A DNA stretch of 45,301 nt from Candidatus Gastranaerophilales bacterium. Lineage in GTDB: Bacteria; Cyanobacteriota; Vampirovibrionia; Gastranaerophilales; Gastranaerophilaceae. The position numbers were made by a program, and so were the translations under genes. The stretch's first letter is position 1; each line of letters begins with the position of its first letter. Positions 16,902-45,053 of this stretch are shown piece by piece. The notes below the pieces were generated by a model, which was not told the origin of the DNA, ran no database searches, and saw nothing but the letters and a program-made list of their open reading frames with translations. The DNA lies in NCBI GenBank assembly GCA_944325885.1, contig CALVBT010000012.1, forward strand, positions 1-45,301, given 5' to 3'.

Positions 16902-17113
16902 ATATCTGAGGCGGCTTCGCTTGTAGAAGAGTACACTCTCTGCCGAGTAAATATGCCAGTGGCATATTTGCGAGAGGTAGCGAGGACGCAAAAGTATAAA
17001 TTTTGCGGAAGTGACCACATGCACTTGTTGCCTGTGCCGGACTTATTGAACAAAACGGACTTGGCAATTGCACAGGTTCAACAAGTAGTCGGAGTCAGTT
17101 GACTATATGAAAT
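16902..17113 (+). repeat. Palindromic element A, copy 1, containing hairpin module H
   Basis: The left end TCTGAGGCGGCTTCGCTTGT and the right end GAGTCAGTTGACTATATGAAAT recur at 29240-29375 (reversed), 35411-35476, 37304-37383 and 44111-44245, with degenerate copies at 34796-34839 and 41940-41998. Between them are CCTGTGC and GCACAGG, which can pair. This copy also contains the H hairpin at 16938-16977. It lies between two co-directional genes, and the right end is 16 nt from the next start. Confidence 0.85.
16938..16977 (+). repeat. Hairpin module H, copy 1
   Basis: The fixed flanks CTCTGCCGAG and CGAGAGG enclose a 9-bp perfect stem, AAATATGCC (16949-16957) with GGCATATTT (16961-16969). Other copies keep the flanks but have unrelated stems that also pair. 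Confidence 0.8.
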
Positions 17114-17129
17114 AGTGCGAAGGGGCGTT

Positions 17130-18905
17130 ATGGAGTTTTTGAAAAGTATAAAAAGAGAATACAAATACCTGATTTTGATATTTGTTTTGTTTTTGCTCAA
17201 CATTGTTCTTTTTAACAACAAAATGACAAACCTGCACACAGACCTCGGCCGTGAATTGTATTATTCAAAGTTCGTATCCGAGGGTGGAGTCTTGTACAGG
17301 GATATGTTCAACACATTTTTGTGTCCGTTTTCTTATCTTTTTAACGGTCTTGTTTTGAAGTTTTTTTCTGCAAAGTTTTCTACATTTTATGCCCTCGGTG
17401 CTGTTAATACACTGGTCATTTTGACTTGTGTATTTTTTATTTGCAAAAAGTTCTTAAGCAGCTTTTTGTCCTGCGCTGTTACTGTTTTTGTAATGTATTA
17501 TTGCTGTTTTTATGCAGGGCTTATGAACTATTTTTTGCCGTATTCTTATGCCATGGTCTACGGGCTGGGTGCGTGTTTTGTTTCTGTATTTTTGATGCTG
17601 GAGTATTTGGATTTTTGCTCTGGCAGGGCTGCGGATTGTGAGGCAAAAAATTTATCTTTAACTTCAACCGGTAAATCTGCAAATCAATCACACGCAAAAG
17701 GTAAAAATCTTTTTTTGTACGGTGCGTTTTTCTTTGGCGGCATAGCGTTTTCTAACAAGTATGAATTTGCTTTTTATGCTGTTTTGCTGTTTTTGGTTCT
17801 GTTTTTGAACAGAGAAAAGTTTTTGAAAATAATTTATTGCGCATTGAGTTTTCTTTTTGTGCCGGCAATCTGCTTTTTTGCGTTGATTTTTCAGGGACTC
17901 GGACTGTCTGATTTTTACAATTACTTTTTGATTTTCAGGGAATTTGTTCATCAGCCGTATTTGAAACAGGTTTATGCAACGACATTTTTCTTTGAGCCTG
18001 CGTCTGTTTTGTTTTTGTTAAAGACTTTTGCTGTTTCTCTTGTGGTGTTTTATGTGCTTTACAAATTCTTTGACACTGCTTCAAAAAAAACAATACTTTC
18101 AAAAGCAGGGTTCTGGATTTTGTGTGCAGTGCTTTTGTTTAGTGCTGTGTTTTCTTTCAGGGCAATGAATTTTTGGTGTTATGACTTTTTCAGTTATTTG
18201 CCGTTGTTTTTGGCTGCACTTTTGATTTTCAAAATCAAGGAGATAAAAAAAGATAAGGGGCTTTTGTTTTTGGGTGCTGCGGCTGTTTTGACCTCGTTAA
18301 AATCCTTCTGGCTTTTGAGTACAAATTTTTACGGAAGATATTTTTTGCCTCTTGTACTGATAGCGGCAATAGTTGTTTTAAAAAGAGTTTTGTATGGCGA
18401 AATTCCTTCTGACACTAAAAATACAGAGGCTTTTGACAGGGCTGTATGTTTTGTTTTGATATTTTTGTCGTTTGCGGCTTTCAGGCTCAATGCAGTTGCG
18501 CTTGTTTTGAAAAACACTCCTCTAAAAACTCCTGCAGGCACTGTTATGACTACAAAAACCGAGGCAGGAACTTACAAAAAACTGGCTGATTACATCAGCA
18601 AAAACACAAAAAATTCTGAAAAAATCGTAGTGCTTTCTGCTTCTCCAATGCTCAATTTTATGACGGACAGAGAGTCTTTAAACTTCTACAGCTATTTTGA
18701 CGAGGCTGTTGCAGGGGCTTATACTGCAGAAAGAATTATCAAAAAATTTGAACAAACAGTGCCAAATTATTTTGTGGTGTTTGATTCTTCAAAGGAAAAA
18801 AATGCTTATTGCGGCGGATACGGAAAAGAAATCTGCAAATGGCTTGAAAAAAATTGTACACTTGAAAAAAATATAGATGGAATACTTATATATGCTGGAA
18901 AATAA
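17130..18905 (+). CDS. Polytopic membrane protein, GT-C glycosyltransferase-like (paralogue 1)
   Basis: This 591-residue membrane protein has about 11 to 12 hydrophobic helices and a C-terminal soluble region of about 130 residues. The first loop after helix 1 has NLHTDLGRELYYSKF (Asp at about 38), the position of the catalytic Asp in GT-C enzymes of the ArnT/PMT type, which move sugars from polyprenyl-phosphate carriers. Similar chemistry is plausible but unproven. I chose ATG at 17130 because AAGGGG precedes it; the frame also allows GTG at 17115. A paralogue starts at its end with the same order of motifs (SEGGVLYRDMF versus LDGGVIYKDLL). Codon use is T-rich. Confidence 0.75.
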   Translation: MEFLKSIKREYKYLILIFVLFLLNIVLFNNKMTNLHTDLGRELYYSKFVSEGGVLYRDMFNTFLCPFSYLFNGLVLKFFSAKFSTFYALGAVNTLVILTCVFFICKKFLSSFLSCAVTVFVMYYCCFYAGLMNYFLPYSYAMVYGLGACFVSVFLMLEYLDFCSGRAADCEAKNLSLTSTGKSANQSHAKGKNLFLYGAFFFGGIAFSNKYEFAFYAVLLFLVLFLNREKFLKIIYCALSFLFVPAICFFALIFQGLGLSDFYNYFLIFREFVHQPYLKQVYATTFFFEPASVLFLLKTFAVSLVVFYVLYKFFDTASKKTILSKAGFWILCAVLLFSAVFSFRAMNFWCYDFFSYLPLFLAALLIFKIKEIKKDKGLLFLGAAAVLTSLKSFWLLSTNFYGRYFLPLVLIAAIVVLKRVLYGEIPSDTKNTEAFDRAVCFVLIFLSFAAFRLNAVALVLKNTPLKTPAGTVMTTKTEAGTYKKLADYISKNTKNSEKIVVLSASPMLNFMTDRESLNFYSYFDEAVAGAYTAERIIKKFEQTVPNYFVVFDSSKEKNAYCGGYGKEICKWLEKNCTLEKNIDGILIYAGK

Positions 18906-18906
18906 A

Positions 18907-20619
18907 ATGCAAACCGTTAAATCGAACATAAAACAGGTTTTTGAAACAGTAAAAAACCGGGTCATACAGGAACACAGACCTTTGTTGATTTTGACTCTGT
19001 TATTTTTGGTGAACGTATTTTTGTTCAAATACAAAATGACAGAACTCTATATGGATTTTGGCAAAGAGGCATATCTCTCTAAAGCTGTGCTGGACGGCGG
19101 GGTGATATACAAGGATTTGCTCCCTTTGTTCGGGCCGTTTGCTTATCTTCTTAATGCTGTTGTGATGAAGATTTTTGGCGTCCACCTGACAGTGCTGTAT
19201 CTGGCAGGTGCGCTCAATGCGTATTTTCTTATGGTGCTTTTGTACATTATTTCAAGAAACTTTTTGTCAAAAACAATAAGCACGCTGATTTGTATATTTG
19301 TTTTGTACAACTGCGCTTTTGTTCCTCATTTGATGAACTATCTGACACCGTATTCTTACGGCGTTGTTTACGGGATGAGTGCAGTAATGCTGTCTGTGGT
19401 TTTGTTTTTGAATTATCTCAAAACAAATAACAAAGCTCCTATGTACCTGTCGCTTTTGTTTGCGGGTGTTGCTGCTGCAAACAAGTATGATTTTTTTGTT
19501 TACGGTGCATTTGTACTTTTTTATTGCGTTTTTAAAAACAGAAACCCAAAGACCGTTGCCCTGTCCGTATTGAGCCTTGCTGCTGTGCCTTTAATAATCA
19601 CGGCTGTTCTTTTTATGCAGGGGCTTACGTTCACGGAATTTTTTAATTATGTTGTTTTCTGGCTGAAGTTTGCTTCTTCTTCAGACATAAAGGATTATTA
19701 CACGGGGACGTTTTATTTTTCTTCAAAATATTTTTTGATAATGTTGAAATCTCTGGGCATTTCAGCGGTTTTGTTTGCTGCTGTTTTTTATGCGGCAATG
19801 CTTTTTGAAAAGATAAAAAATGCAAAGCTGAAATATAGTGCCTATGCTTTGCTTTGCGGCGGGCTTTATTATCTTTTTTACACATACAATATATTTGTTT
19901 TAATGTGTGTTCCAAACTCTCTGACATTTGTTGTGAGTATTTTATTGATTGTAAAAATAAAAGATATTATTAAAAACGAGGCTGTATTTTTCCTTTGTGC
20001 ATCGGCGATTCTTGTCGGGATAAAAACGTATTTTTATCTTTTGATGAACCAGTACGGAAGATATTTTTTGCCGCTTTTGCTGGTGAGTTTGCTGGTTGTT
20101 CTTTTTGATTTTTATTTTAAAGAAAAGACAAAGCCGTATTTAAAAAACACAGTAATAATAATGCTTGTGTTAATGTCTGTATTGAGGCTGGTTGTGAGCA
20201 ACGAGCTTTTTGAAGTGCGTACGGCAAAAATACAGACGGATACTGGGATAGTGCTGAGAGAAGGGCCGGAAGCACAGGTGTATAACAGTATTATCAGGAC
20301 AATAGACCTTATCACGGATAAAAACGACACTGTTGTTGCGCTGCCCGAGGCTCCGTTGATAAACTTTTTGACTGGACGAAAATCCGATACTTACAACTAT
20401 CTTATCCCAGTGTTAGTAAGGCTCTACGGTGAGCAGAATATTATAAATCATTACAAAAATGCTGCACCGGAGGCGTTTGTGATTTTGACGGATGAAAATG
20501 ATCAGGGTGCGTTCTGTCGTTCGTGGGGAACGGGGATTTGCAGCTGGGTTGGGCAGAATTACAGGATTGTGCAAACCATAAAAGCTGAAAAGCTTATTTT
20601 GATATTGCAAAAAATTTGA
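18907..20619 (+). CDS. Polytopic membrane protein, GT-C glycosyltransferase-like (paralogue 2)
   Basis: This 570-residue protein is the tandem paralogue of the gene before it. Both have FLxNVxLFxxKMT helix 1, an acidic loop (LYMDFGKEAYLSKA, Asp about 50), LMNYLTPYSYGVVYG where paralogue 1 has LMNYFLPYSYAMVYG, AANKYDFFVYG, QYGRYFLPLLL and a C-terminal domain with LINFLTGRKSDTYNY. About 11 membrane helices are visible. It could move a glycosyl group to a lipid or cell-surface polymer. Possible starts are 18877 and 18892 (overlapping the previous gene) and 18907; I prefer 18907 because TGGAA lies at a suitable distance. Confidence 0.75.
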   Translation: MQTVKSNIKQVFETVKNRVIQEHRPLLILTLLFLVNVFLFKYKMTELYMDFGKEAYLSKAVLDGGVIYKDLLPLFGPFAYLLNAVVMKIFGVHLTVLYLAGALNAYFLMVLLYIISRNFLSKTISTLICIFVLYNCAFVPHLMNYLTPYSYGVVYGMSAVMLSVVLFLNYLKTNNKAPMYLSLLFAGVAAANKYDFFVYGAFVLFYCVFKNRNPKTVALSVLSLAAVPLIITAVLFMQGLTFTEFFNYVVFWLKFASSSDIKDYYTGTFYFSSKYFLIMLKSLGISAVLFAAVFYAAMLFEKIKNAKLKYSAYALLCGGLYYLFYTYNIFVLMCVPNSLTFVVSILLIVKIKDIIKNEAVFFLCASAILVGIKTYFYLLMNQYGRYFLPLLLVSLLVVLFDFYFKEKTKPYLKNTVIIMLVLMSVLRLVVSNELFEVRTAKIQTDTGIVLREGPEAQVYNSIIRTIDLITDKNDTVVALPEAPLINFLTGRKSDTYNYLIPVLVRLYGEQNIINHYKNAAPEAFVILTDENDQGAFCRSWGTGICSWVGQNYRIVQTIKAEKLILILQKI

Positions 20620-20650
20620 GTTTAAACCTCTTACGCCTTTTTATTTATTA

Positions 20651-20976
20651 GTTCAAGCAGTGAAATTTAATTTTTCAACCTGAAAACAATAAACAAATAA
20701 AAAAAGATTATTTTCTTTGATTGTTCATTTCTTTTCTTTTTTTGCGACGAAAAAGAAAAGAAACGAACCAAAGAAAAGAAAAAGGACGCTGATTAAAACA
20801 GACTCTAATATATTTATCTCCAAAATTTTCTAAACGCTTACGCTAACGAAAATTTTGTTCGTAAATACAAAGAGTCTGTAACCATAGTCACAACGGCAGA
20901 GCCGTAAAACACTTTCGTGCGCAGCTTCGCTGCATATAATATAAGGTTTCTAAATCAAATTTCACTGCATGAATAA
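20651..20976. repeat. Inverted repeat pair around the polypurine hairpin
   Basis: TTCAAGCAGTGAAATTTAAT (from 20651) is the inverse, with few changes, of AAATTTCACTGCATGAA (about 20957-20973). The pair encloses the polypurine hairpin and overlaps the left part of the element at 20911-21202. It looks like one palindromic element interrupted by others. Confidence 0.55.
20713..20776. repeat. Polypurine/polypyrimidine hairpin
   Basis: TTCTTTG..TTC.TTTCTTTTCTTTTT on the left pairs with AAAAAGAAAAGAAACGAACC then AAAGAA on the right around the loop TTTGCGACG. The stem is about 25 bp with a small bulge. It lies shortly after paralogue 2 and could stop transcription, though no clean T-run terminator is present. 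The strongly one-sided purine content stands out. Confidence 0.65.
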
Positions 20977-21202
20977 AGAGAGGTGTAAGATGTTTGCTTC
21001 GGAGTGACTGCGTAACTCTGCCGAGCAAAACAATCCGGTGAATTGTTTTGCGAGAGGTCAGACGACGAAGTCGGAACGAAGAAGTAAATATCTTATACCT
21101 CTTATTTTGTATTACACTTTCTGTATGAATGGCGCAGCAGGTCTGATTTTTAATAATTATCTGTAACAAATATTATAAAGAGCGAAGCTGCACACGAAAG
21201 TA
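20911..21202 (+). repeat. Long inverted-repeat element E with module H inside
   Basis: The outer arms are ACTTTCGTGCGCAGCTTCGC (from 20911) and GCGAAGCTGCACACGAAAGT (21183-21202), with one mismatch. An inner 22-bp arm, 20979-21000, pairs with 21081-21102; its only three imperfect positions are G-U pairs in plus-strand RNA. The centre holds hairpin H (21016-21057). The right part (CACTTTCTGTATGAATGG and CAGCAGGTC....AATTATCTGTA) matches the right side of element D at 27348-27397. No gene lies in 20620-21297. Confidence 0.8.
21016..21057 (+). repeat. Hairpin module H, copy 2
   Basis: CTCTGCCGAG, stem CAAAACAAT (21026-21034) with ATTGTTTTG (21042-21050), then CGAGAGG. The flanks equal the other copies and the stem does not. 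Confidence 0.8.
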
Positions 21203-21297
21203 AAATTAAGCGTAGTGTTTTGGACAGCAAGGGTGACATTTGTCGAAAAATTTGATATATTTTATATTTAAAAGAAATAAAAATGAGGCCTTAAAAA

Positions 21298-21969
21298 ATG
21301 AGATTGTCAAAAACCCATGATTTGCCGGGTACATTGATATGTGTGGAAGGAATAGACGGCTCGGGGAAATCTACCCAGCTGGCTATTTTGAGAGATTGGC
21401 TAAAGAGCAAAAACCTTGATGTAATCTTTACTGAGTGGAACTCTTCGGATTTGATTTCTCAAACAACAAAAAAAGCAAAAAAGAAAAACCTGCTGAGTCC
21501 GAGGACTTTTAGCCTGCTGCACGCAGTGGATTTTGCCGACAGGCTCGAGCAGATTATTATCCCCGCACTAAAGGCAGGGTTTATCGTGCTGGCTGACAGA
21601 TATGTCTATACTGCCTTTGCCCGTGACGTTGCCAGAGGCGTGGATAAAGACTGGGTCAGAAACATGTACGGCTTTGCCATAAAACCTGATTTGGCTCTGT
21701 ATTATAGTATCTCTGCAGAAATTTCTCTTGAGCGTATCTGCGCAAACCGTGCGCCGTCGTTTTATGAGGCAGGCATGGATTTAAAACTCAGCAACAACCC
21801 GTATAAAAGCTATGTTATTTTCCAAAACAGAGTGAACGAAGAATACTCCAACATGGTAGACGAATTCGGGCTGGTAAAAATCGATGCAAACAATACTATC
21901 CACTCAAAACAGGTGTTGTTAAGAAAGTACGTGACAGAACTTTTAAGCAAAAAAGGAATTAATATCTGA
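21298..21969 (+). CDS. Thymidylate-kinase-like P-loop protein, paralogue 1
   Basis: This 223-residue P-loop kinase belongs to the thymidylate kinase family, which phosphorylates dTMP with ATP. Walker A is GIDGSGKST (18-26). SLLHAVDFADRLEQIIIPAL and the ADRYVYTAFARDVARGVDKD motif (DRY at about 99-101) follow. The segment RAPSFYEAGMDLKLSNNPYK replaces the usual lid. This sub-type differs from the housekeeping Tmk (which has DRYxxSSxAYQG), so the substrate could be different. The stop overlaps the start of the second copy by one base (TGATG), and the two proteins keep the same motif order. ATG at 21298 follows a weak site. Confidence 0.85.
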   Translation: MRLSKTHDLPGTLICVEGIDGSGKSTQLAILRDWLKSKNLDVIFTEWNSSDLISQTTKKAKKKNLLSPRTFSLLHAVDFADRLEQIIIPALKAGFIVLADRYVYTAFARDVARGVDKDWVRNMYGFAIKPDLALYYSISAEISLERICANRAPSFYEAGMDLKLSNNPYKSYVIFQNRVNEEYSNMVDEFGLVKIDANNTIHSKQVLLRKYVTELLSKKGINI

Positions 21970-22640
21970 TGGAAAGCTGCAAAAACGGACATAACCACAA
22001 GGGTTTGTTAATAGTAATAGAAGGCACCGACGGCTCTGGAAAATCTACCCAGATAGAAAAACTGCGCCGCTGGATAGAGGACAAAAGCTACGGGTGTATG
22101 GTTTCCGAATGGAAAACCAGCAGATTGATAGCCAATGTAATAGACGACGCAAAAGACCGCAACCTCCTGAACGCTACGACTTTTAGTCTTTTGTATGCTG
22201 CGGATTTTGCCGACAGACTCGAAAACACAATCATCCCTGCGCTGGATTCCGGATTTGTTGTGCTTTTGGACAGATATACTTATACGGCTTTTGCCCGTGA
22301 CGTGGTCAGAGGACTGGACATAGACTGGGTCAAAAAGCTTTACAACTATGCCCCGCAGCCTGATTTGGTATTTTATCTTGATATGCCTATTGATGTGCTT
22401 TTAAAAAGAGTAATAGGTACAACAGGGCTGGATTACTGGGAGTCTGGCAGAGATATCGGGCTGAGTACGGATTTTTATGAGAGCTTTAAAATTTATCAGG
22501 CAAAGTGTCTTGAGGAATACAATAAAATGAAGCCGATGTACAACTTTGTCAGCATAGACGGTACTTTGCCCAGAGAAGAGATTCACAATCTTATGATAGA
22601 GCATGTGGAAAAACTGCTTAATACGGGCAAGCTGGACTAG
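21969..22640 (+). CDS. Thymidylate-kinase-like P-loop protein, paralogue 2
   Basis: This is a 223-residue tandem paralogue, exactly the same length as the preceding copy and translated from an overlapping TGATG. Walker A is GTDGSGKST (19-27). SLLYAADFADRLENTIIPAL and LDRYTYTAFARDVVRGLDID correspond closely to copy 1, as does TTGLDYWESGRDIGLSTDFY. The N-terminus MESCKNGHNHKG differs from that of copy 1. Both keep the catalytic motifs, so neither looks dead. The pair may form a heterodimer or use different nucleotides; the sequence does not decide. Tandem repeats follow 10 nt after its stop. Confidence 0.85.
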   Translation: MESCKNGHNHKGLLIVIEGTDGSGKSTQIEKLRRWIEDKSYGCMVSEWKTSRLIANVIDDAKDRNLLNATTFSLLYAADFADRLENTIIPALDSGFVVLLDRYTYTAFARDVVRGLDIDWVKKLYNYAPQPDLVFYLDMPIDVLLKRVIGTTGLDYWESGRDIGLSTDFYESFKIYQAKCLEEYNKMKPMYNFVSIDGTLPREEIHNLMIEHVEKLLNTGKLD

Positions 22641-22650
22641 ACGGTGTTAC

Positions 22651-22725
22651 GTAAACGTAACATTACGTTTGTGTAACATTACATTTGTGAAATATTACAT
22701 CTATGAAATATTACATAAACGTAAC
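22651..22725. repeat. 16-bp tandem repeats (4.7 units)
   Basis: Units begin at 22651, 22667, 22683, 22699 and 22715 and follow the pattern RTNNRTGWAAYATTAC, for example ATTTGTGAAATATTAC. The array begins inside the palindrome GTTACGTAAACGTAAC. It separates the kinase pair from the cysteine cluster gene. It could be an iteron-like protein-binding array or simple tandem expansion. Confidence 0.85.
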
Positions 22726-22765
22726 GGGCGTCCAAAGTAAGTTGCACATATAAAATTATAAAATT

Positions 22766-23167
22766 ATGAAAATAATAGATTTTATAAAATCCATATACAA
22801 TGAAGCACTTTCGTATTTTGTACCGGAAAAAATAGAGTACAAAATCACGGGCGAGTGCAAAAAATGCGGAAAATGCTGCAATTATATGTACAGCTTTGAT
22901 ACCTATACACCCAAAGAGTTTAAAATAATGCAGTTTTTCTACCCCGCATACAGACGTTTTTATATAAAAGGCAAGGACAGCGAGGGCAACCTGATATTTG
23001 CGTGCAAATATGTGACAAAAGAGGGATTGTGTTCTGTATATGACAAAAGGCTGCCTATGTGCAAAAGATATCCGCTGCCAAAAATTTCTTACCCCGCAAA
23101 ACTGCACGAGGGCTGCGGCTATACCGTGCAGGAAATAAAATTCAGTGATTATCTAAAAAATGTCTGA
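22766..23167 (+). CDS. YkgJ family cysteine cluster protein
   Basis: This 133-residue cytosolic protein has the zinc- or iron-binding cysteine cluster of the YkgJ/UPF0153 family: CKKCGKCCNYMY (about 32-43), FACKY, LCSVYDKRLPMCKRYPLP and the later GCGY. The role of the family is not established; a metal-binding or redox function is inferred. The length is typical. The ATG at 22766 follows the 16-bp repeat array with a weak binding site. The stop codon, TGA at 23165-23167, is part of the TGTCTGAGG left end of a family A element, so the element defines the present C-terminus. Confidence 0.85.
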   Translation: MKIIDFIKSIYNEALSYFVPEKIEYKITGECKKCGKCCNYMYSFDTYTPKEFKIMQFFYPAYRRFYIKGKDSEGNLIFACKYVTKEGLCSVYDKRLPMCKRYPLPKISYPAKLHEGCGYTVQEIKFSDYLKNV

Positions 23168-23293
23168 GGCGGCTTCGCTTGTAATTTGTAAAGTGACCCC
23201 ATGCACTGTCTTGAAATCAGACGCTTCGTCCCCCTGAACGTGGGACTGCGCATGGGGCAAAGCCCCGTCTGATTCCGCTTGTTGCAGTGCTTG
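23160..23293 (+). repeat. Element A, copy 2, interrupted by a family C hairpin
   Basis: The left half of family A (TGTCTGAGGCGGCTTCGCTT through GACCCCATGCACT) is interrupted by about 70 bp and resumes as TTGTTGCAGTGC. The insert contains GAAATCAGACG and CGTCTGATTCC arms around GGGGCAAAGCCCC, matching the family C repeats at 27573-27838 but with different arm bases. The right end of family A is missing. A -10-like TATAAT follows at 23324-23329. Confidence 0.65.
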
Positions 23294-23359
23294 CATTTTT
23301 GGCGATTTTTATTCATGATTGTTCTATAATTTAATGTCCTCATAATTATCTCATATATT

Positions 23360-24127: not shown

Positions 24128-24133
24128 GCAAAA

Positions 24134-24856: not shown

Positions 24857-24911
24857 TATATTGTCTGTGGCACTACCGGCCGTGACAGATAAATGAAAAA
24901 AGGATAGAATC

Positions 24912-26051: not shown

Positions 26052-26060
26052 GAGAAAACT

Positions 26061-28323: not shown

Positions 28324-28341
28324 TTTTTTCTCCTCCCGATA

Positions 28342-34839: not shown

Positions 34840-34855
34840 GAAAAGGATATTAAAA

Positions 34856-35398: not shown

Positions 35399-35410
35399 TG
35401 CTATAGGAAA

Positions 35411-35476
35411 TTGTCTGATGCGGCTTCGCTTGCAGCTTGTGCAGAAGCGGCCGGAGTCAGCAGGCTATATGAAATA
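35411..35476 (+). repeat. Element A, copy 5 (short)
   Basis: TTGTCTGATGCGGCTTCGCT at the left and CGGAGTCAG, CTATATGAAATAATA at the right, with most of the middle missing. It ends 16 nt before the tlyA start. Confidence 0.75.
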
Positions 35477-35492
35477 ATAACGGAGAAATTCC

Positions 35493-36308: not shown

Positions 36309-36338
36309 TCGTTGGCAAAATCAACAAGAGGAGTAAAG

Positions 36339-37289: not shown

Positions 37290-37303
37290 GGTATAATAAA
37301 AGA

Positions 37304-37383
37304 TGTCTGAGGCGGCTTCGCTTGCAGCTTGTGAAGTGACCCCAAGCACTTATATAGTCGGAGTCAGTTGACTATATGAAATA
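37304..37383 (+). repeat. Element A, copy 6
   Basis: TGTCTGAGGCGGCTTCGCTT at the left and GTCGGAGTCAGTTGACTATA at the right, with a shortened middle (GTGACCCCAAGCACTTATAT). It occupies the gap between the phosphoesterase and the MBL hydrolase gene, ending 17 nt before the latter. Confidence 0.85.
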
Positions 37384-37400
37384 CAGGAGTTTATGGCATA

Positions 37401-38333: not shown

Positions 38334-38886
38334 AAAAATTGTTTTGCTTTTAATATTTTTGGCGCTCCCTCTTGCCGCACAGGCAAAAATGGAGGTCTAC
38401 AACATTGATGCGCAAAAAAACGCAGTTGACCACAACAACCGTGGTGTAATTTACATGCAAGACCGCTACTATGCCGCTGCTATCAAAGAATTCCAGATGG
38501 CTGTGCTGTTAGACCCCACCACACAGGCCAGTGCAATTTATTATTCAAACCTTGCAAACTGCTATATGAAAATAGGCTATCCTGCTCTGGCGCAAGACAC
38601 TCTGCAAAGAGCGTTAAAGCTCTTCCCTATGAATTTTACATATTATCAGGACCTTGCCGTTGTTTACAAAAGGATGAAGATTCTGCCACAAAAACTCAGG
38701 TATTACGAAAAAGACAGCGCAAAAAATCCGCTTTCGCAGGTTATGGTGGGGATGATACTGATGGAACAGGGCAAAACCGATGCTGCTCTTGCAAAGCTGC
38801 AGGAGTTTGTCTATACGGAGCCTGATTTGATTATCACAAACGGGGTGAAAAAATATATTGAACAGCACTCTGCCGTGCGGTTTTGA
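38323..38886 (+). CDS. Exported TPR-repeat protein
   Basis: A 187-residue protein with a signal peptide (LLLIFLALPLAAQAK) and about three tetratricopeptide repeats: AVDHNNRGVIYMQDRYYAAA, ASAIYYSNLANCYMKIGYPA and FTYYQDLAVVYKRMKI. TPR domains mediate protein-protein contacts, here outside the cytoplasm. I chose TTG at 38323 because AGGTCAGGA lies just upstream and the signal peptide length is then normal; it overlaps the MBL gene by 11 nt, implying coupled translation. The frame also allows a TTG at 38299. The C-terminus (KKYIEQHSAVRF) has no further domain. Confidence 0.8.
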   Translation: MYCKKIVLLLIFLALPLAAQAKMEVYNIDAQKNAVDHNNRGVIYMQDRYYAAAIKEFQMAVLLDPTTQASAIYYSNLANCYMKIGYPALAQDTLQRALKLFPMNFTYYQDLAVVYKRMKILPQKLRYYEKDSAKNPLSQVMVGMILMEQGKTDAALAKLQEFVYTEPDLIITNGVKKYIEQHSAVRF

Positions 38887-38945
38887 TACTTTGTCAGATT
38901 GTGCTATGATTTTATACACAGAGGGAGAAGCACAGGGGAATAGCT

Positions 38946-40055
38946 ATGGAAATGATTATAGGTCTTTTTATATTTTTAATCGGAGCTGCACTGGGTGCAG
39001 GCATGACCTTTTTTGTTATGAAAAATCTATCGCAAAAGCAGGCACAATCGGTTGCTGACAGTTACAAAGATATCTACGAAAAAATGCAGCTGCAGTTTGA
39101 AAACCTGTCTAATAAAATATTTAAAGAAACAACACAGGACTTTTCAAATACATCAAAAGAGCGTATCGCAGAGATTTTGGAACCGTTTAAAGAAAAGTTT
39201 GAAGAACTCAAAAAACAATCCACCTACAACATTGAGCAGAGCGCAAAACTCGATATGCACATAAAAGAAGTAATCGAAACAGGTGCAAAAATTTCCAATG
39301 ACACAAACACCCTTGCCTCTGCACTCAAAGGCGATAATATGAAACAGGGCAGATGGGGCGAACTTATCCTTGAAAAAGTGCTGGAATTATCAGGATTGAG
39401 AAAAGGCGAAGAATACGAAACCCAGACAGCCTACGGCTCAAAAAAACCGGATGCAACAATATTTTTGCCTGACAACAAGGCTATTTTTATCGATGCAAAA
39501 ACCTCGCTTGCTGCTTATGACGCATATATAAATGCTCAGAGTGAAGAAGAAGCCCAAACAGCCATGAAGCAGTTTAAAGATTCCGTAAAAACTCATATTT
39601 CAGGGCTTTCAAAACGTGAATACTTTGAAATCGAGGACTTTACCTCACCTGAGTATGTGCTTATGTTCATCCCGATAGAGAGCTGTTATGTCATGCTTTT
39701 TGCCGACAATGCAGAACTGTGGGAACTCGCATGGAAAAACAGAATCATGCCTGTATCTCCGTCTACGCTGCTTGCTGCGTTAAAAATCATCAACAGCTTT
39801 AATATGGTGAACAGACAGAACAAAAACGCACAGGAGATAGCTACTCTGGCAGGAAAAATGATAGACAAGTTTGCGGATATGGTAAAAGACCTTAACGGCG
39901 TGCAAACAAACCTCTCAAAAGCCATGACAAAGCTCACGGGCAGAGATAACGTGATAAGACAGTGCGAAAGACTGACAGAACTGGGCGCAAAAAACGCAAA
40001 ACAAATCCCTGCTCCTGCGCTAAATGAAGAAAATCAGCAAACTACGCTTGTGTAA
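38946..40055 (+). CDS. rmuC: DNA recombination protein RmuC
   Basis: RmuC limits recombination at inverted repeats in E. coli and has a nuclease-related fold. This 369-residue protein starts with a membrane anchor (MIIGLFIFLIGAALGAGMTF), then a coiled coil (about 30-125), then the RmuC domain (about 135-345): GRWGELILEKVLELSGL, KPDATIFLPDNKAIFIDAKT (the D..K nuclease-like pair), YVLMFIPIESCYVMLFADNA and ATLAGKMIDKFADMVKDL. ATG at 38946 follows GGGGAATAGCT. Given the many palindromic elements in this genome, its presence is notable, but no functional link is shown. Confidence 0.94.
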   Translation: MEMIIGLFIFLIGAALGAGMTFFVMKNLSQKQAQSVADSYKDIYEKMQLQFENLSNKIFKETTQDFSNTSKERIAEILEPFKEKFEELKKQSTYNIEQSAKLDMHIKEVIETGAKISNDTNTLASALKGDNMKQGRWGELILEKVLELSGLRKGEEYETQTAYGSKKPDATIFLPDNKAIFIDAKTSLAAYDAYINAQSEEEAQTAMKQFKDSVKTHISGLSKREYFEIEDFTSPEYVLMFIPIESCYVMLFADNAELWELAWKNRIMPVSPSTLLAALKIINSFNMVNRQNKNAQEIATLAGKMIDKFADMVKDLNGVQTNLSKAMTKLTGRDNVIRQCERLTELGAKNAKQIPAPALNEENQQTTLV

Positions 40056-40097
40056 ACGGCAGTGGCTGGCTCAGACAATTTAATTATATGATACCGG

Positions 40098-40928
40098 CTA
40101 GAGGCTCTGGTAATATTCCTTCAGCAGAACGGCATCTTCTTCCATAATCGGGCTTTCGCAAACCACAACACCTTTTACGCCGAATTCTTTAAATGCTTTC
40201 ATCAAATCTTTGTAGTTCATGTCGCTTTCTTTTAGCATAAGGTGCTTTTTCTCGCCTTTTTCGCCGTATTCTATGCCTGCTATGTGCGCATGGAAATTTT
40301 CTATGGCATTGCTGCCGAGTTCTTTTGCAATGTGGTCAAAAATAGCGCAAAATTCGTCATAGGTGTTATATTTTCCGTTTGTGCGGGCATGAAGATGCGA
40401 AAAATCCACACACGGCAAAACCTGCTCAAAAGTCTTTGATAGCTTGACGATTTCTTCGAGATTTCCCCATTGTGTGCCTTTGCCGGTTGTTTCGGGGCGC
40501 ACCCAGATTGTGTTGCCTTCTTCTGCGAGGGTTGCGCACACTCTGGCCATTGATTCTTCCACTTTTTTGTAGACTGCGTCTTGTGGCATGCCCATATAAA
40601 ATGCAGCATGGAACGTGATTGAATATGCCCCGAGTTCACTGCCTATGCGGGCTGTGTCCAGCACCCTTGTTATGCTTGCTTCTATTTTTTCTTCTTCTTT
40701 GGAGTTCAAATTTATATAATAAGGCCCGTGCGCTGTCAGCACCATGTTTTTTTCTGCAGCACATTTTTTGACCAGCTCTCTGTTTTGAGCCGTCATCCTT
40801 ACCCCGTGGACAAACTCCAGCTCCAGCCCGTCGAGTTTTAGTTTTTCGAGTATATTAAAGGCGTTTTCGTACCCGGCAGAACCGTTACAAATAGGCTGAC
40901 CGGCTGTTACAAATTTTAGTTCGTTCAT
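40098..40928 (-). CDS. Endonuclease IV-like TIM-barrel protein (AP endonuclease family 2)
   Basis: This 276-residue TIM barrel resembles deoxyribonuclease IV (Nfo), the zinc-dependent AP endonuclease of base-excision repair. Motifs that carry metal ligands in that family are present: TAHGPYYINL, TFHAAFYMG, WVRPETTGKGTQWGNLEEIV, PCVDFSHLHAR, NFHAHIAGIEYG and VVVCESP. Sugar isomerases share the fold, but the ETTGKGTQWG and HAHIAGIEY pattern favours the nuclease branch. The start codon overlaps the stop of the formyltransferase gene (ATGA), so the two are translationally coupled. Confidence 0.85.
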   Translation of the reverse strand: MNELKFVTAGQPICNGSAGYENAFNILEKLKLDGLELEFVHGVRMTAQNRELVKKCAAEKNMVLTAHGPYYINLNSKEEEKIEASITRVLDTARIGSELGAYSITFHAAFYMGMPQDAVYKKVEESMARVCATLAEEGNTIWVRPETTGKGTQWGNLEEIVKLSKTFEQVLPCVDFSHLHARTNGKYNTYDEFCAIFDHIAKELGSNAIENFHAHIAGIEYGEKGEKKHLMLKESDMNYKDLMKAFKEFGVKGVVVCESPIMEEDAVLLKEYYQSL

Positions 40929-41866
40929 TTTCCGAGTGTTTCCCCGATTTGCGGTTTAAATTTTTCTATAAATTCCTTTGCATCGGCTATCATGTATGAG
41001 CCGAACTGCAAAGATTTAATATACAAAATTCCCTGACCTGTTGCAACCCCCAGCGTATCTTTTACGGAACAAATAGTTCCGGGAGCGTATTTTGTCTTTT
41101 TGTCGGAGTAGTCTGCCGTGTAGATTTTTAAAAACACGCCTCTAAAATTTGTCATCGCACTGACAAAAGGGTTCAATGCCCTGACAAAACGCTCTATGTA
41201 CGCTGCATCTTTGCTCCAGTCAATAAAATTTTTGAAATTTCTGGAGTCAATGGACGGTGCTTTTTTGAATTCGCCGTTTGGCTGCGGAATAGACTCTATG
41301 TCGCTGTTCAGTTCATAACCTTTAAGAAATCCTGTCAGCATTTGTGCGCACAGATAGTTCTGCCTGTTGAACAGAGTACCCATTGTTTCCTTTTTATCAA
41401 TATGGATTTTTTTCTGTATGATAATGTTGCCCGTATCAAAGTTTTCGTCCATAAAATGAAGAGTGACGCCTGTTTCTTGCTCATTGTTAATCAAAACATT
41501 GCTGTAGGGGTTTGCACCTCTGTAGTTTGGCAAAAGCGACGGATGACAGTTTACAAAACCGCCTTTTACGCTTTTCAAGAGTTCCGGCGGAAATTTTTTG
41601 TTGTAAGAACAGACGATGGCAATATCAGCTTCGAGCTGTCTTATTTTGTGCAAAAAGTCGATTTCGTCGAGTCTTTTTTCATACGTAATCAAAGGGAGCC
41701 TGAGGCTGTTCACAAAATTGCACATCAAACCGTATGTTCCCTCGCTGCTGTGCGGCGGAACAACACCCACAATATTGAACCCTTCGGCTACCAGTGCGGA
41801 CAAACACACCAGAGCCATATCCGGCATCCCTAAAAAAAGGATTCTCTTTTTATACTTTGTTTCCAC
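40925..41866 (-). CDS. Formyltransferase family protein (Fmt-like)
   Basis: This 313-residue protein belongs to the formyl-THF-dependent transferase family. The N-terminal Rossmann domain has RILFLGMPDMALVCLSALVA and the catalytic signature VNCHPSLLPNYRGANPY (Asn-x-x-His), followed by TGVTLHFMDENFDTGNIIIQ (Asp). The C-terminal domain (about 205-310) resembles the Fmt/ArnA C-domain (ALNPFVSAMTNFRGVFLKIY). It could be the methionyl-tRNA formyltransferase or a sugar formyltransferase of surface polysaccharide synthesis. No def gene adjoins it to settle this. It is coupled to the endonuclease-IV-like gene by ATGA. Confidence 0.85.
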   Translation of the reverse strand: METKYKKRILFLGMPDMALVCLSALVAEGFNIVGVVPPHSSEGTYGLMCNFVNSLRLPLITYEKRLDEIDFLHKIRQLEADIAIVCSYNKKFPPELLKSVKGGFVNCHPSLLPNYRGANPYSNVLINNEQETGVTLHFMDENFDTGNIIIQKKIHIDKKETMGTLFNRQNYLCAQMLTGFLKGYELNSDIESIPQPNGEFKKAPSIDSRNFKNFIDWSKDAAYIERFVRALNPFVSAMTNFRGVFLKIYTADYSDKKTKYAPGTICSVKDTLGVATGQGILYIKSLQFGSYMIADAKEFIEKFKPQIGETLGK

Positions 41867-41939
41867 AACAAACTCCTGATTGTGACACCGATTATTATAC
41901 CTGTTTTTTGCTCAATTTACTATACATTATACTATGTAG

Positions 41940-41998
41940 ACTGTTTGAGGCTGCCTTGTTTGTAGATGTGGCGGGCGTCAGTCGTCTATATGAAATGG
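41940..41998 (+). repeat. Diverged element A, copy 7
   Basis: GACTGTTTGAGGCTGCCTTG at the left and CGTCAGTCGTCTATATGAAA at the right match family A loosely, with no middle. The right end is followed directly by the promoter of the TPM gene. Confidence 0.5.
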
Positions 41999-42002
41999 TT
42001 AG

Positions 42003-42030
42003 TTGTAATAAAAAATAAATTCGCTATAAT
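42003..42030 (+). promoter_or_regulatory. Predicted promoter of the TPM gene, giving a leaderless mRNA
   Basis: TTGTAA (42003-42008), a 16-bp spacer, then a perfect TATAAT (42025-42030). The chosen ATG lies only 7 bp after the -10 box, where transcription would start, and no Shine-Dalgarno sequence precedes it. Leaderless translation is inferred. Confidence 0.5.
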
Positions 42031-42037
42031 AATTTTT

Positions 42038-42760
42038 ATGTTAAAAAAACTGCTCTTCGTAATATTTTTTAGCCTTATATTCTGTTTTGGACAGAGTGCC
42101 TTTTGTGACAGCGTGTATAATTTTGATGGATTTATAAGCGACAACGCAGGGGTTTTAAACAGCAGAGCAAAAGCATCAATAAATGCATTGATGTGGGATT
42201 TGCAAAAAAAGACCGGAGCGGATGTCGCTGTTGTGACGGTAAAGAGCCTTGATGGCAGAAGCGTTGAAGAAACAGCCCTGAACATCGGACGTAAATATAA
42301 AATAGGCAAAAAAGGCGAGGACACGGGTGCAGTAATACTAGTAGCCCCTAATGACAGAAAATTGAGAATTGAAATCGGCTATGGACTGGAAGGAATCATA
42401 ACCGACGGAAAAGCAGGCAGAATCCGTGATGAAGAGATGCTCCCGTATTTTAAAAAAGGAGATTATGAAAGCGGAATCTGGCGAGGCAGCTATGCTCTGG
42501 CTCAAAATATTGCAAAAGGCTACGGCGTAACGCTGTCTGACACGGGGCCTGTGCCAAAAGCTCCCTCAAAAAGCGAAGACAATGCGTTTTTTGTTCTGTT
42601 TGTTATCATATTTTTGTGTATAAGATTCAATATTTTCCCGATATTTATACCGTTTGGCGGTTATGGCAGCCGGTATGATTCCGGCTTTGGCGGTGGAGGC
42701 TTCGGCGGATTCGGCGGCGGGGGCGGCTTTGGCGGCGGCGGTGCGTCAGGCGGCTGGTAA
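42038..42760 (+). CDS. TPM domain protein (YgcG family) with Gly-rich tail
   Basis: A 240-residue exported membrane protein. A signal peptide (LLFVIFFSLIFCFGQSAFCD) leads into the TPM_phosphatase domain (about 28-165): FDGFISDNAGVLNSRAKASI, TGADVAVVTVKSLDGRSVEE and LRIEIGYGLEGIITDGKAGR. A membrane helix (FFVLFVIIFLCIRFNIFPIF) and a glycine-phenylalanine tail (FGGGGFGGFGGGGGFGGGGA) follow. The family is often next to LemA, as here, and its role in the envelope is unsettled. I chose ATG at 42038, which begins the signal peptide; the frame is open to 41966. Confidence 0.88.
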   Translation: MLKKLLFVIFFSLIFCFGQSAFCDSVYNFDGFISDNAGVLNSRAKASINALMWDLQKKTGADVAVVTVKSLDGRSVEETALNIGRKYKIGKKGEDTGAVILVAPNDRKLRIEIGYGLEGIITDGKAGRIRDEEMLPYFKKGDYESGIWRGSYALAQNIAKGYGVTLSDTGPVPKAPSKSEDNAFFVLFVIIFLCIRFNIFPIFIPFGGYGSRYDSGFGGGGFGGFGGGGGFGGGGASGGW

Positions 42761-42782
42761 ATTTAGATTAAAAGGACTTTTT

Positions 42783-43502
42783 ATGAAAAAACTCGATGTG
42801 TTTATAAAAGAATTAACAGAAATTTTTGGTAATAGGCTCAAGAGCGTATTTATTTATGGCTCAACAGCGAAACTGGCAGACTCGGAGCTTTGTGACAACG
42901 TAAACCTTATGGTTATAACGGATGTGCTGGCGGGTGAGGACTTGAAAAAAGTTTCTGCTTCAGCAAAAAAATGGTGCGGCGGCAGTTTGTTCGACAGGAG
43001 CAGAAATCCCGAACCCTTGTTTATGGGCGAAGAGGAATGGGCAAATTCCGCTGACGTGTATGCAATGGAATACGCTGATATCAAAGAAAATCACAGGGTA
43101 GTGTACGGCGAAGACCCTGTCTGTTACATAAATGTAACAGGCGAGAACCTGCGCCTGCAATGCGAAAGAGAAACAAAGAATCTTTTGATGAGGTTTCGCT
43201 CGCATTATTTGCTTTTTGCAAACGATTACAGAAAACTGCAAACAAGCATTGTTCCTGTGATAAAGAGCTGCAACGCTATTTTCAAAACTGTCTTGAGGTT
43301 AAAAGGGATTGCTATCCCTTCTTCACCCTATGAGGTGCTGGACAAAATCCATGACCTGACACCTGTAGACAAAGATTTTTATGAAAAACTGCTCTGCCGC
43401 AAAGAAAAACACTGCAAAATGAACAGGAAAGAAACATATGAAATTGCGGACAAGACAGTGCAAGAACTGGACAAACTTTTGAAATACATAAATAATTTAT
43501 AA
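42783..43502 (+). CDS. Nucleotidyltransferase-fold protein with lost catalytic Asp residues
   Basis: This 239-residue protein starts like a pol-beta/KNTase nucleotidyltransferase: FIYGSTAKLADSELCDNVNL with G26-S27, then the strand NVNLMVI where active enzymes have DxDLLV. Both catalytic aspartates appear to be Asn (N39, N41), so it may be inactive. Residues 110-239 are helical with KSCNAIFKTVLRLKGI and a HEPN-like end (EIADKTVQELDKLLKYINNL). It lies between TPM and LemA genes, 22 nt and 21 nt away. I chose ATG at 42783, with AAAAGGAC upstream; the frame is open to 42654 but that overlaps the Gly-rich tail. Confidence 0.75.
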   Translation: MKKLDVFIKELTEIFGNRLKSVFIYGSTAKLADSELCDNVNLMVITDVLAGEDLKKVSASAKKWCGGSLFDRSRNPEPLFMGEEEWANSADVYAMEYADIKENHRVVYGEDPVCYINVTGENLRLQCERETKNLLMRFRSHYLLFANDYRKLQTSIVPVIKSCNAIFKTVLRLKGIAIPSSPYEVLDKIHDLTPVDKDFYEKLLCRKEKHCKMNRKETYEIADKTVQELDKLLKYINNL

Positions 43503-43523
43503 TTGATGAATGGAGAAAAAACT

Positions 43524-44099
43524 ATGAAAAAAACAGGATGGATTATTTTGGCGGTAGTGCTGCTACTTGTGGTAATGCTGTTTGGGGCATTTATCGGAAC
43601 ATACAACAGCCTGCAGCTGATGGATGAAAACGTAAATTCAAAATGGGCGCAGGTCGACAACCAGCTGAAAAGACGTAACGACCTTATCCCGAACCTTGTT
43701 GCAACGGTTAAGGGCTATGCCGCACACGAAAAAGAAGTGTTTACCCAAATCGCTGATGCCCGCTCAAAACTCGGCGGTGCTATGGATAAAAACGATATGA
43801 AAGGGATTCAGCAGAGCAACAGCGACCTCTCAAATGCTTTGTCCAGACTGCTTTTAATCGTTGAAAGATACCCTGATTTGAAAGCTGACAAACAGTTCAT
43901 CAATCTGCAGGACGAGCTGGCCGGCACAGAAAACAGGCTCGCTGTCGCAAGAAAAGATTACAACGATTCTGTTCAGCAGCTCAATGCCAGAATCAGAACT
44001 TTCCCGACCTCGATAATCGCAGGCATGATTGGGATAAAAGCAAGGGAATACTTTAACACTCCCGATGCAGAAAAAAAGGCTCCGGAAGTTAAGTTCTAA
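43524..44099 (+). CDS. lemA: LemA family protein
   Basis: A 191-residue membrane-anchored, helical protein of the LemA family, with unknown function. An N-terminal anchor (TGWIILAVVLLLVVMLFGAF) is followed by the diagnostic VNSKWAQVDNQLKRRNDLIP, NLVATVKGYAAHEKEVFTQI and LLIVERYPDLKADKQFINLQ, then ARKDYNDSVQQLNARIRTFP. I chose ATG at 43524, with TGGAG 8 nt upstream; an earlier ATG at 43503 is possible. It ends the TPM-nucleotidyltransferase-LemA run and is followed by a family A element and a terminator. Confidence 0.94.
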   Translation: MKKTGWIILAVVLLLVVMLFGAFIGTYNSLQLMDENVNSKWAQVDNQLKRRNDLIPNLVATVKGYAAHEKEVFTQIADARSKLGGAMDKNDMKGIQQSNSDLSNALSRLLLIVERYPDLKADKQFINLQDELAGTENRLAVARKDYNDSVQQLNARIRTFPTSIIAGMIGIKAREYFNTPDAEKKAPEVKF

Positions 44100-44110
44100 A
44101 TTTGGAATAA

Positions 44111-44245
44111 TGTCTGAGGCGGCTTAGCTTGTAACTTGTGAAGTGACCCCATGCACTTGTTGCCTGTGCCGGACTTGTTTAACAAAACGGACTTACCAAT
44201 TGCACAGGTTCTACAAGTAGTCGGAGTCAGTTGACTATATGAAAT
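44111..44245 (+). repeat. Element A, copy 8 (complete)
   Basis: TGTCTGAGGCGGCTTAGCTT, GTGACCCCATGCACTTGTTG, CCTGTGCCGGACTTG, CGGACTTACCAATTGCACAG and GGAGTCAGTTGACTATATGA are all present, making it the best full-length reference copy without module H. It lies between lemA and its terminator. Confidence 0.85.
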
Positions 44246-44247
44246 TG

Positions 44248-44283
44248 TCCCGCCCTTATTTATCAGGGGCGGGATTTGTTTTT
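44248..44283 (+). terminator. Terminator after lemA
   Basis: TCCCGCCC (44248-44255) pairs with GGGCGGGA (44267-44274), followed by TTTGTTTTT. It follows the lemA gene and the element A copy, so the element is transcribed with lemA. Confidence 0.85.
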
Positions 44284-44389
44284 GGTATCTTAAGAAATCA
44301 GCCTGCGGCGAGGGCAGCTGACTATAGTTGACTATATAAAATAATGCTTGCAAAAAATTATTATTGATTTTATTATAGTTGTACTTTGT

Positions 44390-44719
44390 TATTTGAACAT
44401 TGGACTTCGCCATAGAGGCGCAATGATTGAACATTGAAAGCGGATTTTGCGTAGGCTGACCGAGTGAAACGAGGGAACGCTGAAGTAGCACCGAAATAAT
44501 GAGCGGATGTTTTGTTTACAAAACAGAGCGAATGACTTGAAGGTGTGAAGCAATAATCCAAGACTGATTGAACTTTGAAAGATAATTTGGACTTTGCCGA
44601 TGTGGCACTCTGCCGAGAAAAACGATTAAGTATCGTTTTTCGAGAGGCGTACGAACGGAAGTGAGTACCTTCGCCATTGAGGCGCAATGATTGAACATTG
44701 TAAACTTAATTTGGACTTT
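44390..44719. repeat. Tandemly duplicated leader region of tRNA-Leu(CAG)
   Basis: GAGGCGCAATGATTGAACAT occurs at about 44416 and again at about 44682, and a related GACTGATTGAACTTTGAAAG lies at about 44564. AATTTGGACTTTGCCGATGT occurs at 44584 and 44708, each reaching into the first bases of a tRNA-Leu. So the 5' region and first 11 nt of the tRNA are duplicated. No gene is supported in 44284-44719. Confidence 0.7.
44608..44647 (+). repeat. Hairpin module H, copy 3, after a tRNA-Leu 5' fragment
   Basis: CTCTGCCGAG, stem AAAAACGAT (44618-44626) with ATCGTTTTT (44632-44640), then CGAGAGG. It begins one base after GCCGATGTGGC (44596-44606), the first 11 nt of the tRNA-Leu(CAG) downstream. Confidence 0.8.
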
Positions 44720-44800
44720 GCCGATGTGGCGAAATGGTAGACGCACACGCTTCAGGTGCGTGCGAGGAAACTCATGGGGGTTCGAGTCCCTTCATCGGCA
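44720..44800 (+). tRNA. tRNA-Leu (CAG anticodon)
   Basis: The acceptor arms GCCGATG and CATCGGC pair perfectly with discriminator A at 44800. The anticodon stem CACGC/GCGTG encloses TTCAGGT with anticodon CAG. A long variable arm (CGAGGAAACTCATG region) and T-arm GGGGTTCGAGTCCC fit a class II tRNA-Leu. The CCA end is not encoded. Confidence 0.95.
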
Positions 44801-44859
44801 GATTTTTTACAAAAATTATATTTGTGATAATATAATTTTATTGACAATTAAATACTGAT

Positions 44860-45053
44860 GTCGACGTGGCACTCTGCCGAATGGATTTTGTGCAGGCACG
44901 CCGTGGGCGTAAGCCCCCAGTGCCTATGTGAGTAAGGTTGATGTAATGTAGAATTTTTAGAATGAAAATTCGAAATGTAATTCAAAACCTTATGAACGCC
45001 AACAATCTAAGAGAACGATTAAGTATCGTTTTTCGAGAGGGGAGGTATACGCG
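44860..45053 (+). repeat. tRNA-Leu(GAG) 5' fragment disrupted by split hairpin H
   Basis: GTCGACGTGGC (44860-44870) equals nt 1-11 of the tRNA at 45069. It is followed at once by ACTCTGCCGA, the left part of module H. The right part of H resumes at 45011-45040 (GAGAACGATTAAGTATCGTT then CGAGAGG), after 130 bp that include a reversed family C unit (44895-44934). GGTATACGCG (45044-45053) then repeats the tRNA D-arm. The original appears to be a partial tRNA copy with H inserted in its D-arm and further DNA inserted into H. Confidence 0.7.

Follow-up and report, generated by a model that had tools for sequence, protein, structure and literature searches.

Hairpin modules with constant feet and changing stems at tRNA gene ends of Candidatus Gastranaerophilales

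How can a short DNA hairpin keep constant borders and a paired stem while the sequence of the stem differs from copy to copy? The question is raised by module H, which recurs in a stretch of 45,301 nt (referred to below as the window; contig CALVBT010000012.1 of assembly GCA_944325885.1, positions 1 to 45,301) from Candidatus Gastranaerophilales, a gut member of the Melainabacteria. The host genome (G000) comprises 2.17 Mb in 19 contigs and is 96.75% complete; the window is contig 12. An annotation made from the letters of the window alone (the original prediction) had listed three intact modules and a split copy between fixed flanks, within two dispersed elements (A and E) and at tRNA fragments, and had held that either rewriting of one arm from the other or strong selection on the fold was needed. 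The analysis reported here favors, with a probability of about 45%, a view of module H as an exchangeable hairpin cassette (∼40 to 50 nt) that folds as single-stranded DNA and is one of several inserts in fold-back units at tRNA gene ends.

Co-variation of the hairpin arms

Within the window, CTCTGCCGAG was present six times with no more than one mismatch, compared to a mean of 1.24 in shuffled sequence, and none of 100 shuffles reached six. The strict motif (CTCTGCCGAG-N10-40-CGAGAGG) was found 16 times in the host genome, and the same pattern reversed was not found there. The intact modules lie exactly where they had been placed. The split copy is real and starts one base before the predicted 44872, and alignments of copies and loci bore out the locations in element A, in element E and at tRNA fragments. 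The flanks are fixed as A-CTCTGCC-GA before the stem and GA-GAGG behind it, but the next base, which had been taken as part of the border, varies (CGAGAGG, TGAGAGG, GGAGAGG, AGAGAGG).

Collapsing 389 modules gave 224 distinct enclosed stem-loops. Contrary to the claim that no stem resembles another apart from those of the two tRNA-linked copies, these form a few loop families genome-wide: ACTAAATGT (112 stem-loops), ATTRAGTAT-like (58), CCNGTGA (17), GCC-NGT-GGC (12), and two more with 5 each, leaving 15 others. The expectation that the enclosed segments would be complementary more often than chance was borne out, as they were on average 85% paired (G-T counted) compared to 41% after shuffling in 234 modules.

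In four symmetric loop families, 1,847 of 2,109 cells were Watson-Crick pairs. The largest family had 779 such cells out of 924, whereas 1,000 column shuffles averaged 550 and never exceeded 578, and in each of the four sets tested the observed pairing was matched by neither column shuffles nor whole-arm swaps (1,000 trials). Pair 5 of the largest family takes all four pairs (AT 40, GC 30, TA 20, CG 17, others 2). Because shuffles ignore relatedness, stem-loops that differ at exactly two stem positions were also compared. The two positions were partners in 70 comparisons, 58 of which had Watson-Crick pairs in both stem-loops, and lay elsewhere in 38, when random placement would put ∼1 in 20 at partners by our estimate, the pairs not being independent.

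The arms change stepwise, one after the other. There were 49 single-position stem differences among distinct stem-loops. When arms were compared at the same locus, as the original prediction had proposed, 7 double differences were found, but single-arm differences were more frequent (16), and only 3 of the 7 doubles were Watson-Crick in both. On the module strand of the four families, G-T pairs outnumbered A-C 34 to 8, most mismatches were GA/AG (147) and GG (47), and GA/GA and G.G mismatches were kept at recurrent stem places. Strong selection on the fold is thus supported. The single-arm differences, the G-T intermediates and the retained purine mismatches make it unnecessary to invoke rewriting of one arm from the other, and such rewriting is disfavored because arm copying would erase the retained GA/GA and G.G mismatches.

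Truncated tRNA termini around the modules

What the original prediction had missed, having noticed tRNA fragments, is that tRNA termini are the main home of module H, that its polarity is fixed, and that inverted tRNA copies accompany it. Exact matches of at least 9 nt to a tRNA terminus, with enough flank present, were scored as terminus copies. Among modules unselected for tRNAs (the 16 strict modules of the host genome plus the places from a genome scan with the strict motif), a terminus copy lay on the ACTCTG side in 93 of 142 and on the opposite side in none. The corresponding counts were 267/386 and 0/386 for all modules collected, a set enriched for tRNA sites by a scan with a tRNA-type motif, and with looser scoring 97 of 151 unselected strict modules scored at least 9 against a tRNA terminus. 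Modules point from the outer flank inwards within the truncated copy, and none of the 142 was reversed. In a set enriched for GTGGC sites, the module followed nt 11 or 12 in 136 of 145 same-strand cases. By eye, it replaces native bases (GGAAT, GAAAT, GCAGC, GCAGT, GGAGT, GGAGC and similar), often plus TA or AA. An automatic split of 97 tRNA-terminus modules assigned 53 to the 5′ side and 44 to the 3′ side, at least four tRNA-Pro rows being on the wrong side.

The order of a unit is flank, outer tRNA copy (5′ up to the D arm or 3′ up to the T arm), insert, often an inverted arm copy, second flank, and intact tRNA; module H takes the place of ∼5 native nt. The junctions lie in D and T arms at both tRNA gene ends, and units are often in tandem. 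The unit period was 78 to 288 nt (median, 112 nt; 231 units), although here and in the counts of inverted copies some rows scored as followed by the intact gene really precede another module (e.g., L026, L088, L167). As wholes, the units have direct repeats of 10 to 213 nt. The short words GTGGC, GGTAGC and GAACC are shared at flanks, and 3′ flanks resemble, by eye, copies of each tRNA's own terminator. In the 5′ units of many loci an AT motif (TTGAMAATTRAATA) precedes the intact tRNA; scored with a crude motif, it was present at 68 of 97 tRNAs that have a module versus 8 of 68 without. Contigs often break within unit arrays or element A (e.g., G000 C4 start, C7 end and C11 start), so array lengths in these assemblies are probably underestimated.

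Filled and empty sites are known from tRNA-Met orthologues, from element A and from 15 copies of an element in another genome (G106). Among the 21 tRNA-Met loci of the genus that were compared, 4 were empty (L352-L355), 16 had one to three units, some decayed (L335-L348, L350, L351), and one (L349) had a remnant without a hairpin; these proportions are not frequencies because a filled locus was the query of the similarity search that supplied the loci. The 5′ units at these loci sit between promoter and tRNA, and in L346 the distance from the promoter to the first, module-bearing copy is, by eye, roughly that from the promoter to the tRNA in empty L352. Element A has two module sites, each occupied in some copies and empty in others. 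Fourteen module-bearing regions of G106 were examined, and they contain one tRNA-Pro unit and the 15 copies of another two-site element, in which, by reading, both sites were filled in 5, only the second in 7 and only the first in 1, and a single module lay between both outer flanks in 2. Its empty first site reads GAGTGGC-GTATTA-GACAGC and the filled one GAGTGGC-H-TAGACAGC. Many modules of this genome are paired 51 nt apart in the dispersed element, an expansion that looks recent.

Truncated copies of a gene's own terminus within 400 nt were also surveyed independently of module H, the termini of other tRNAs serving as control. They were present at 27 of 43 tRNA genes in the host genome (18 on the 5′ side and 14 on the 3′ side; control, 2/481). 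In the other genomes the loci of the 30 best-scoring tRNAs (of 38, 35 and 42), plus any tRNA inside those loci, were taken: 14/31 tRNA genes had such a copy in G030 of the same family (control, 5/352) and 17/30 in G064 of another family of the order (control, 1/344). In G082, of another order in the same class, the count was 0/30 (control, 1/334), this single genome being a thin out-group control.

An inverted copy of the tRNA's own arm of at least 8 nt was found in 49 of 133 distinct units, compared to 3.1% with other tRNAs, and one of at least 10 nt in 24 of 133, compared to 0.4%. Examples are of 15 nt in L094 and L166 (Leu-UAA) and 16 nt in L017 (Lys) and L033 (Gln, 3′ side). Since 26 of the 49 contain bases that the module displaced on the other arm, these were copied from the native arm and not from the module-bearing one.

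A unit may arise while DNA is being replicated or repaired, if a strand within the outermost tRNA hairpin arm folds back or switches template, which would yield the order parent-inverse-parent. The cassette would be set in at the turning point or be exchanged at that point afterwards, possibly aided by the words GTGGC, GGTAGC and GAACC. If an enzyme or the replication machinery recognizes the foot and a continuous helix, the stem would be free to vary, and the intact tRNA copy would keep the host alive. The parent-inverse-parent order is also that of tandem inversion duplications. Ordinary duplications of this kind at tRNA genes, followed by drift and with the hairpin as a by-product, would suit this layout and the very variable lengths of the direct repeats. 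However, the units recur at a single class of genes and have a conserved cassette where the first junction lies, and an origin by such passive events seems most unlikely, as it would leave unexplained the constant feet, the few inserts recurring at many tRNAs, the constant place and polarity, the copies away from tRNAs and the absence outside the order.

The folding strand, other inserts and possible cargo

The strand that folds can be approached through modules that lie antisense to their tRNA, at the 3′ ends of Leu(CAA), Met, Gln, Arg, Glu, His and Phe genes (seven species), the tRNA side being set by hand-chosen sequence words. If the hairpin formed in the tRNA transcript, these modules should show the opposite bias. 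In the 51 antisense modules (29 distinct stems, 28 used) there were 15 purine-purine and 0 pyrimidine-pyrimidine mismatches, with 1 G-T and 0 A-C; the counts are small. Thus, the bias stays on the module strand, to which the constraint is bound, and single-stranded DNA fits better than RNA of the tRNA operon, although the fold may instead belong to an independent transcript.

The main competing explanation at this point is that the units are leader or trailer RNAs that fold beside the pre-tRNA and act in tRNA processing or regulation, selection on the RNA fold making the stems co-vary. The position of 5′ units between promoter and tRNA, the excess of G-T over A-C and the tandem GA would all be expected of such RNAs. 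In this view the RNA would form a three-way junction in which the module is one arm and the foot resembles a kink-turn. A kink-turn has a helix on either side of a 3-nt bulge and the tandem sheared G.A pairs that come after it; as a reading of sequence only, the module foot can be taken as CUC-UGCC-GA / GA-GAG, with a 4-nt bulge, or with CUCU/AGAG paired. Structured RNA is nevertheless an unlikely explanation, as the module is antisense to the tRNA in 3′ units with the asymmetry still on the module strand, and modules also occur in dispersed elements. In addition, the two tRNAs were the only Rfam families at gathering score in the window, and at E values up to 5 five loci gave tRNAs and matches far below the cut-off, none of them relevant.

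Two further ideas about folding were given up. A closing acceptor stem between tRNA nt 1-7 and the segment behind the module is not general, at least 6 of 7 pairs being formed in 58% of 113 units compared to 50% when shuffled and 38% when swapped. A wider duplex test (14 nt against the first 70 nt of the segment behind the module; 171 units) gave −8.7, compared to −6.9 shuffled and −7.3 swapped, and 72 of the 171 units were more than 2 below their own shuffles. GNA triloops are typical of DNA hairpins, and 44 of 58 triloop hairpins behind modules were GNA and none TNC, but some derive from tRNA and the argument is not relied on. There was no c-GNA-g among 43 triloop hairpins of the window plus L506, and the 3′ side in 70 units of three genomes had 4 GNA, 2 TNC and 15 other triloops.

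The reading of module H as an exchangeable single-strand DNA cassette is supported by the co-variation, the strand-bound mismatches, the terminus context, the inverted copies, the order-wide spread, and the filled and empty sites. Several points weigh against it. No event has been observed and no enzyme found. The preference for G.T over A.C and the G.A mismatches would suit RNA too. No recognizable terminus copy was present at 49 of the 142 unselected modules, and in the host genome only 12 of 25 modules passed the cut-off, in part because fMet copies match over 8 nt only; nine module copies there sit in elements A and E. An inverted copy of at least 8 nt was lacking, whether lost or never there, in 84 of 133 units. 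Finally, the second flank on the 5′ side has the AT motif, which empty tRNA-Met loci lack and which plain duplication of the flank does not explain.

Module H is one insert among several. Of the 27 tRNA genes with a terminus copy in the host genome, nine have H within 330 nt, Leu(GAG) is next to the split H, and at Phe H lies 1.2 kb away; the rest have other structured inserts of at least four types, grouped by eye. One of these (GGACTCC..GGAGG) has the same exchangeable stems as H between different feet. Non-H inserts in terminus copies at loci L470-L505 include CTTGAGCTGTTGGCGAGC.. on the 3′ sides of Val, Arg(CCU) and Gln(CUG) and ..GATTAA(G) on the 5′ sides of Asp and Leu(CAA).

On the 3′ side of tRNA-Phe in the host genome (L003 1545-2790, contig 2), ∼1.2 kb with a 250-codon frame lies between module and tRNA, the sole case above 260 nt among the loci examined, most of which were no longer than 3 kb so that longer inserts may be missed. 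The frame had only a below-cut-off match to ADP-ribosyltransferase in Pfam and no match in NCBIfam. A gene for a 273-aa CheR-type methyltransferase adjoins it.

Such cargo would be expected if the units were miniature integrative elements whose folded strand mimics a tRNA arm and is joined into D and T arms by a tyrosine recombinase, as at integron attC or CTX phage attP. The D- and T-arm junctions at both gene ends, the fixed polarity, the terminus copy with its inverted copy, and four matches to the tyrosine recombinase family PF00589 in the host genome, a model not specific for IntI, are in line with this. It is still quite improbable, because none of the four recombinases was linked to a unit, the 3′ flanks resemble by eye each tRNA's own terminator rather than element-borne DNA, and cargo occurs in one case only. 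No integrase was found within inserted DNA in the loci examined, which held this one cargo frame in units otherwise of ∼100 nt.

The features of the window are listed in Table 1. Between the two parts of the split module, ∼130 nt of another palindromic element (ATGTGAGTAAGGTTGATG..AACCTTATGAACGCCAAC; 44881-45010) is inserted, and similar sequence precedes tRNA-Arg(ACG) in L487.

Table 1. Module H copies and tRNA features in the window
Feature	Position	Strand	Basis or remark
Module H, stem TAAATATGCC/GGCATATTT, within dispersed element A	16938..16977	+	Motif and genome search
Element A over the range aligned among its copies, from TCTGAGGCGG.. to ..AGTTGACTATATGAAAT	16905..17113	+	Five own-genome copies aligned; outer limits approximate
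Module H, stem CAAAACAAT/ATTGTTTTG, within dispersed element E	21016..21057	+	Motif and genome search
Element E, arms GGTGTAAGATGTTTGCTTC.. and ..GAAGTAAATATCTTATACC either side of module H	20979..21102	+	Copies aligned
Module H, stem AAAAACGAT/ATCGTTTTT, in unit ahead of tRNA-Leu(CAG)	44608..44647	+	Motif and genome search
Truncated copy of tRNA-Leu(CAG) nt 1-11 (GCCGATGTGGC); plus flank, repeat of 44708-44730	44596..44606	+	
TTCGCCA, inverted copy of tRNA-Leu(CAG) arm covering bases displaced by module; 7 nt can be chance	44670..44676	+	
Intact tRNA-Leu(CAG)	44719..44801	+	
Truncated copy of tRNA-Leu(GAG) nt 1-11 (GTCGACGTGGC)	44860..44870	+	
Left foot of split module H	44871..44880	+	
Right part of split module H	45011..45040	+	
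Intact tRNA-Leu(GAG)	45069..45153	+	
Copy of tRNA-Leu(GAG) 3′ end: 3′-side unit with other insert, cut by contig end	45284..45301	−	

Spread and relation to known elements

A relaxed motif (ACTCTGCCGA-N12-40-GAGAGG) was detected in 86 of 146 genomes of the class: by hand count 82 of 88 in the family and, from the order's other families, 4 of 22 (three in f6, one in f7). It was absent from the 36 genomes elsewhere in the class, and the reversed control gave 0 in every one of the 146. Counts reached 86 (G013), with 61 in G106 and 26 in the host genome. The strict motif was found in 45 of 99 genomes, all of one family, a restriction due in part to the motif itself, since the relaxed form adds two more families. 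A tRNA-type variant matched at least 114 stretches across named genomes. The 80 titles among the matches listed were mostly Candidatus Gastranaerophilales or Melainabacteria; others were gut or rumen bacteria without a name, and a few were odd, among them Fusobacterium sp. CAG:439 and a bin assigned to Acinetobacter. Viral contigs gave at least 120 pattern matches; among those listed, 5 were at least 70% paired and one, around 3450 of a contig classed as viral (L210; IMGVR_UViG_3300011008_000426), is by eye a real module H.

Among known systems, repetitive extragenic palindromic (REP) sequences and REPINs, moved by REP-associated tyrosine transposases (RAYTs), are similar in form: they are short palindromes with a mismatched single-strand hairpin, many extragenic copies and tandem pairs (PMC3733652; PMC3116915). 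Module H shares the short imperfect palindrome and the many scattered copies, and one possibility is that it is REP-like and was mobilized by a Y1 transposase of the RAYT group, now partly lost. Genes for Y1 transposases (PF01797) are present in 8 of 23 genomes of the genus. This is very unlikely, however, as the host genome, with its 26 relaxed modules, and 14 other genomes of the genus have no PF01797 match, and modules occur in all 23. The feet (ACTCTGCCGA and GAGAGG) have no GTAG or CGTC tag, GTAG following the right foot in some copies only, and an anatomy of tRNA termini with terminus and inverted copies around freely changing stems is unlike that of REPs.

Mitochondrial double hairpin elements are likewise mobile-looking hairpins without an enzyme of their own. 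The same holds for repetitive hairpin elements of mitochondria, and those of sponges have conserved stems and variable loops (PMC2800124). Module H is mostly the reverse, with stems that vary, and its home is bacterial tRNA gene ends. Rickettsia palindromic elements are also short dispersed palindromes, and they insert in RNA genes. They are described with a CGTC end (PMC3733652), a tag that module H lacks, having instead terminus copies and polarity. Miniature inverted-repeat transposable elements have terminal inverted repeats and a short target duplication of constant length. The feet of module H pair only in part, and its filled and empty sites show ∼5 nt replaced and no short duplication at the module itself, the direct repeats of 10 to 213 nt belonging to whole units. 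Integron attC sites are folded single-strand sites with a variable part in tandem units; the units described here use tRNA arms as sites and have cargo in one case. Integrative elements leave a partial and a complete tRNA copy at the two ends of inserted DNA (PMC9897764). The units share this feature but are usually ∼100 nt, lie on both 5′ and 3′ sides, and have inverted arm copies.

No account of such tRNA-end units was found in the literature covered, which left most subscription journals and preprints outside. On this incomplete coverage we rate the tRNA-end system as new in kind and the hairpin alone as a variant of mobile palindromes. Of the features tested, one or more did not fit in each of three cases: REP/RAYT palindromes, Rfam families and ordinary tRNA-integrated elements. 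More tentatively than for the cassette itself, it can be proposed that Gastranaerophilales run a dedicated DNA-level process that makes fold-back copies of their own tRNA ends and docks exchangeable single-strand hairpin cassettes, module H and several other insert types, in this additional copy at its D or T arm, a new tRNA-anchored mobile or capture class that may occasionally carry a protein gene.

With hundreds of natural hairpins whose feet are constant and whose stems are free, selection on the fold and arm copying can be tested against each other directly. If the proposal is true, a bacterial order adds structured DNA to its tRNA gene ends in a directed way that leaves the gene intact, an enzyme acting on single-strand hairpins at tRNA genes would be indicated, and a tRNA fragment in one of these genomes would not have to be a scar left by an integrating phage.

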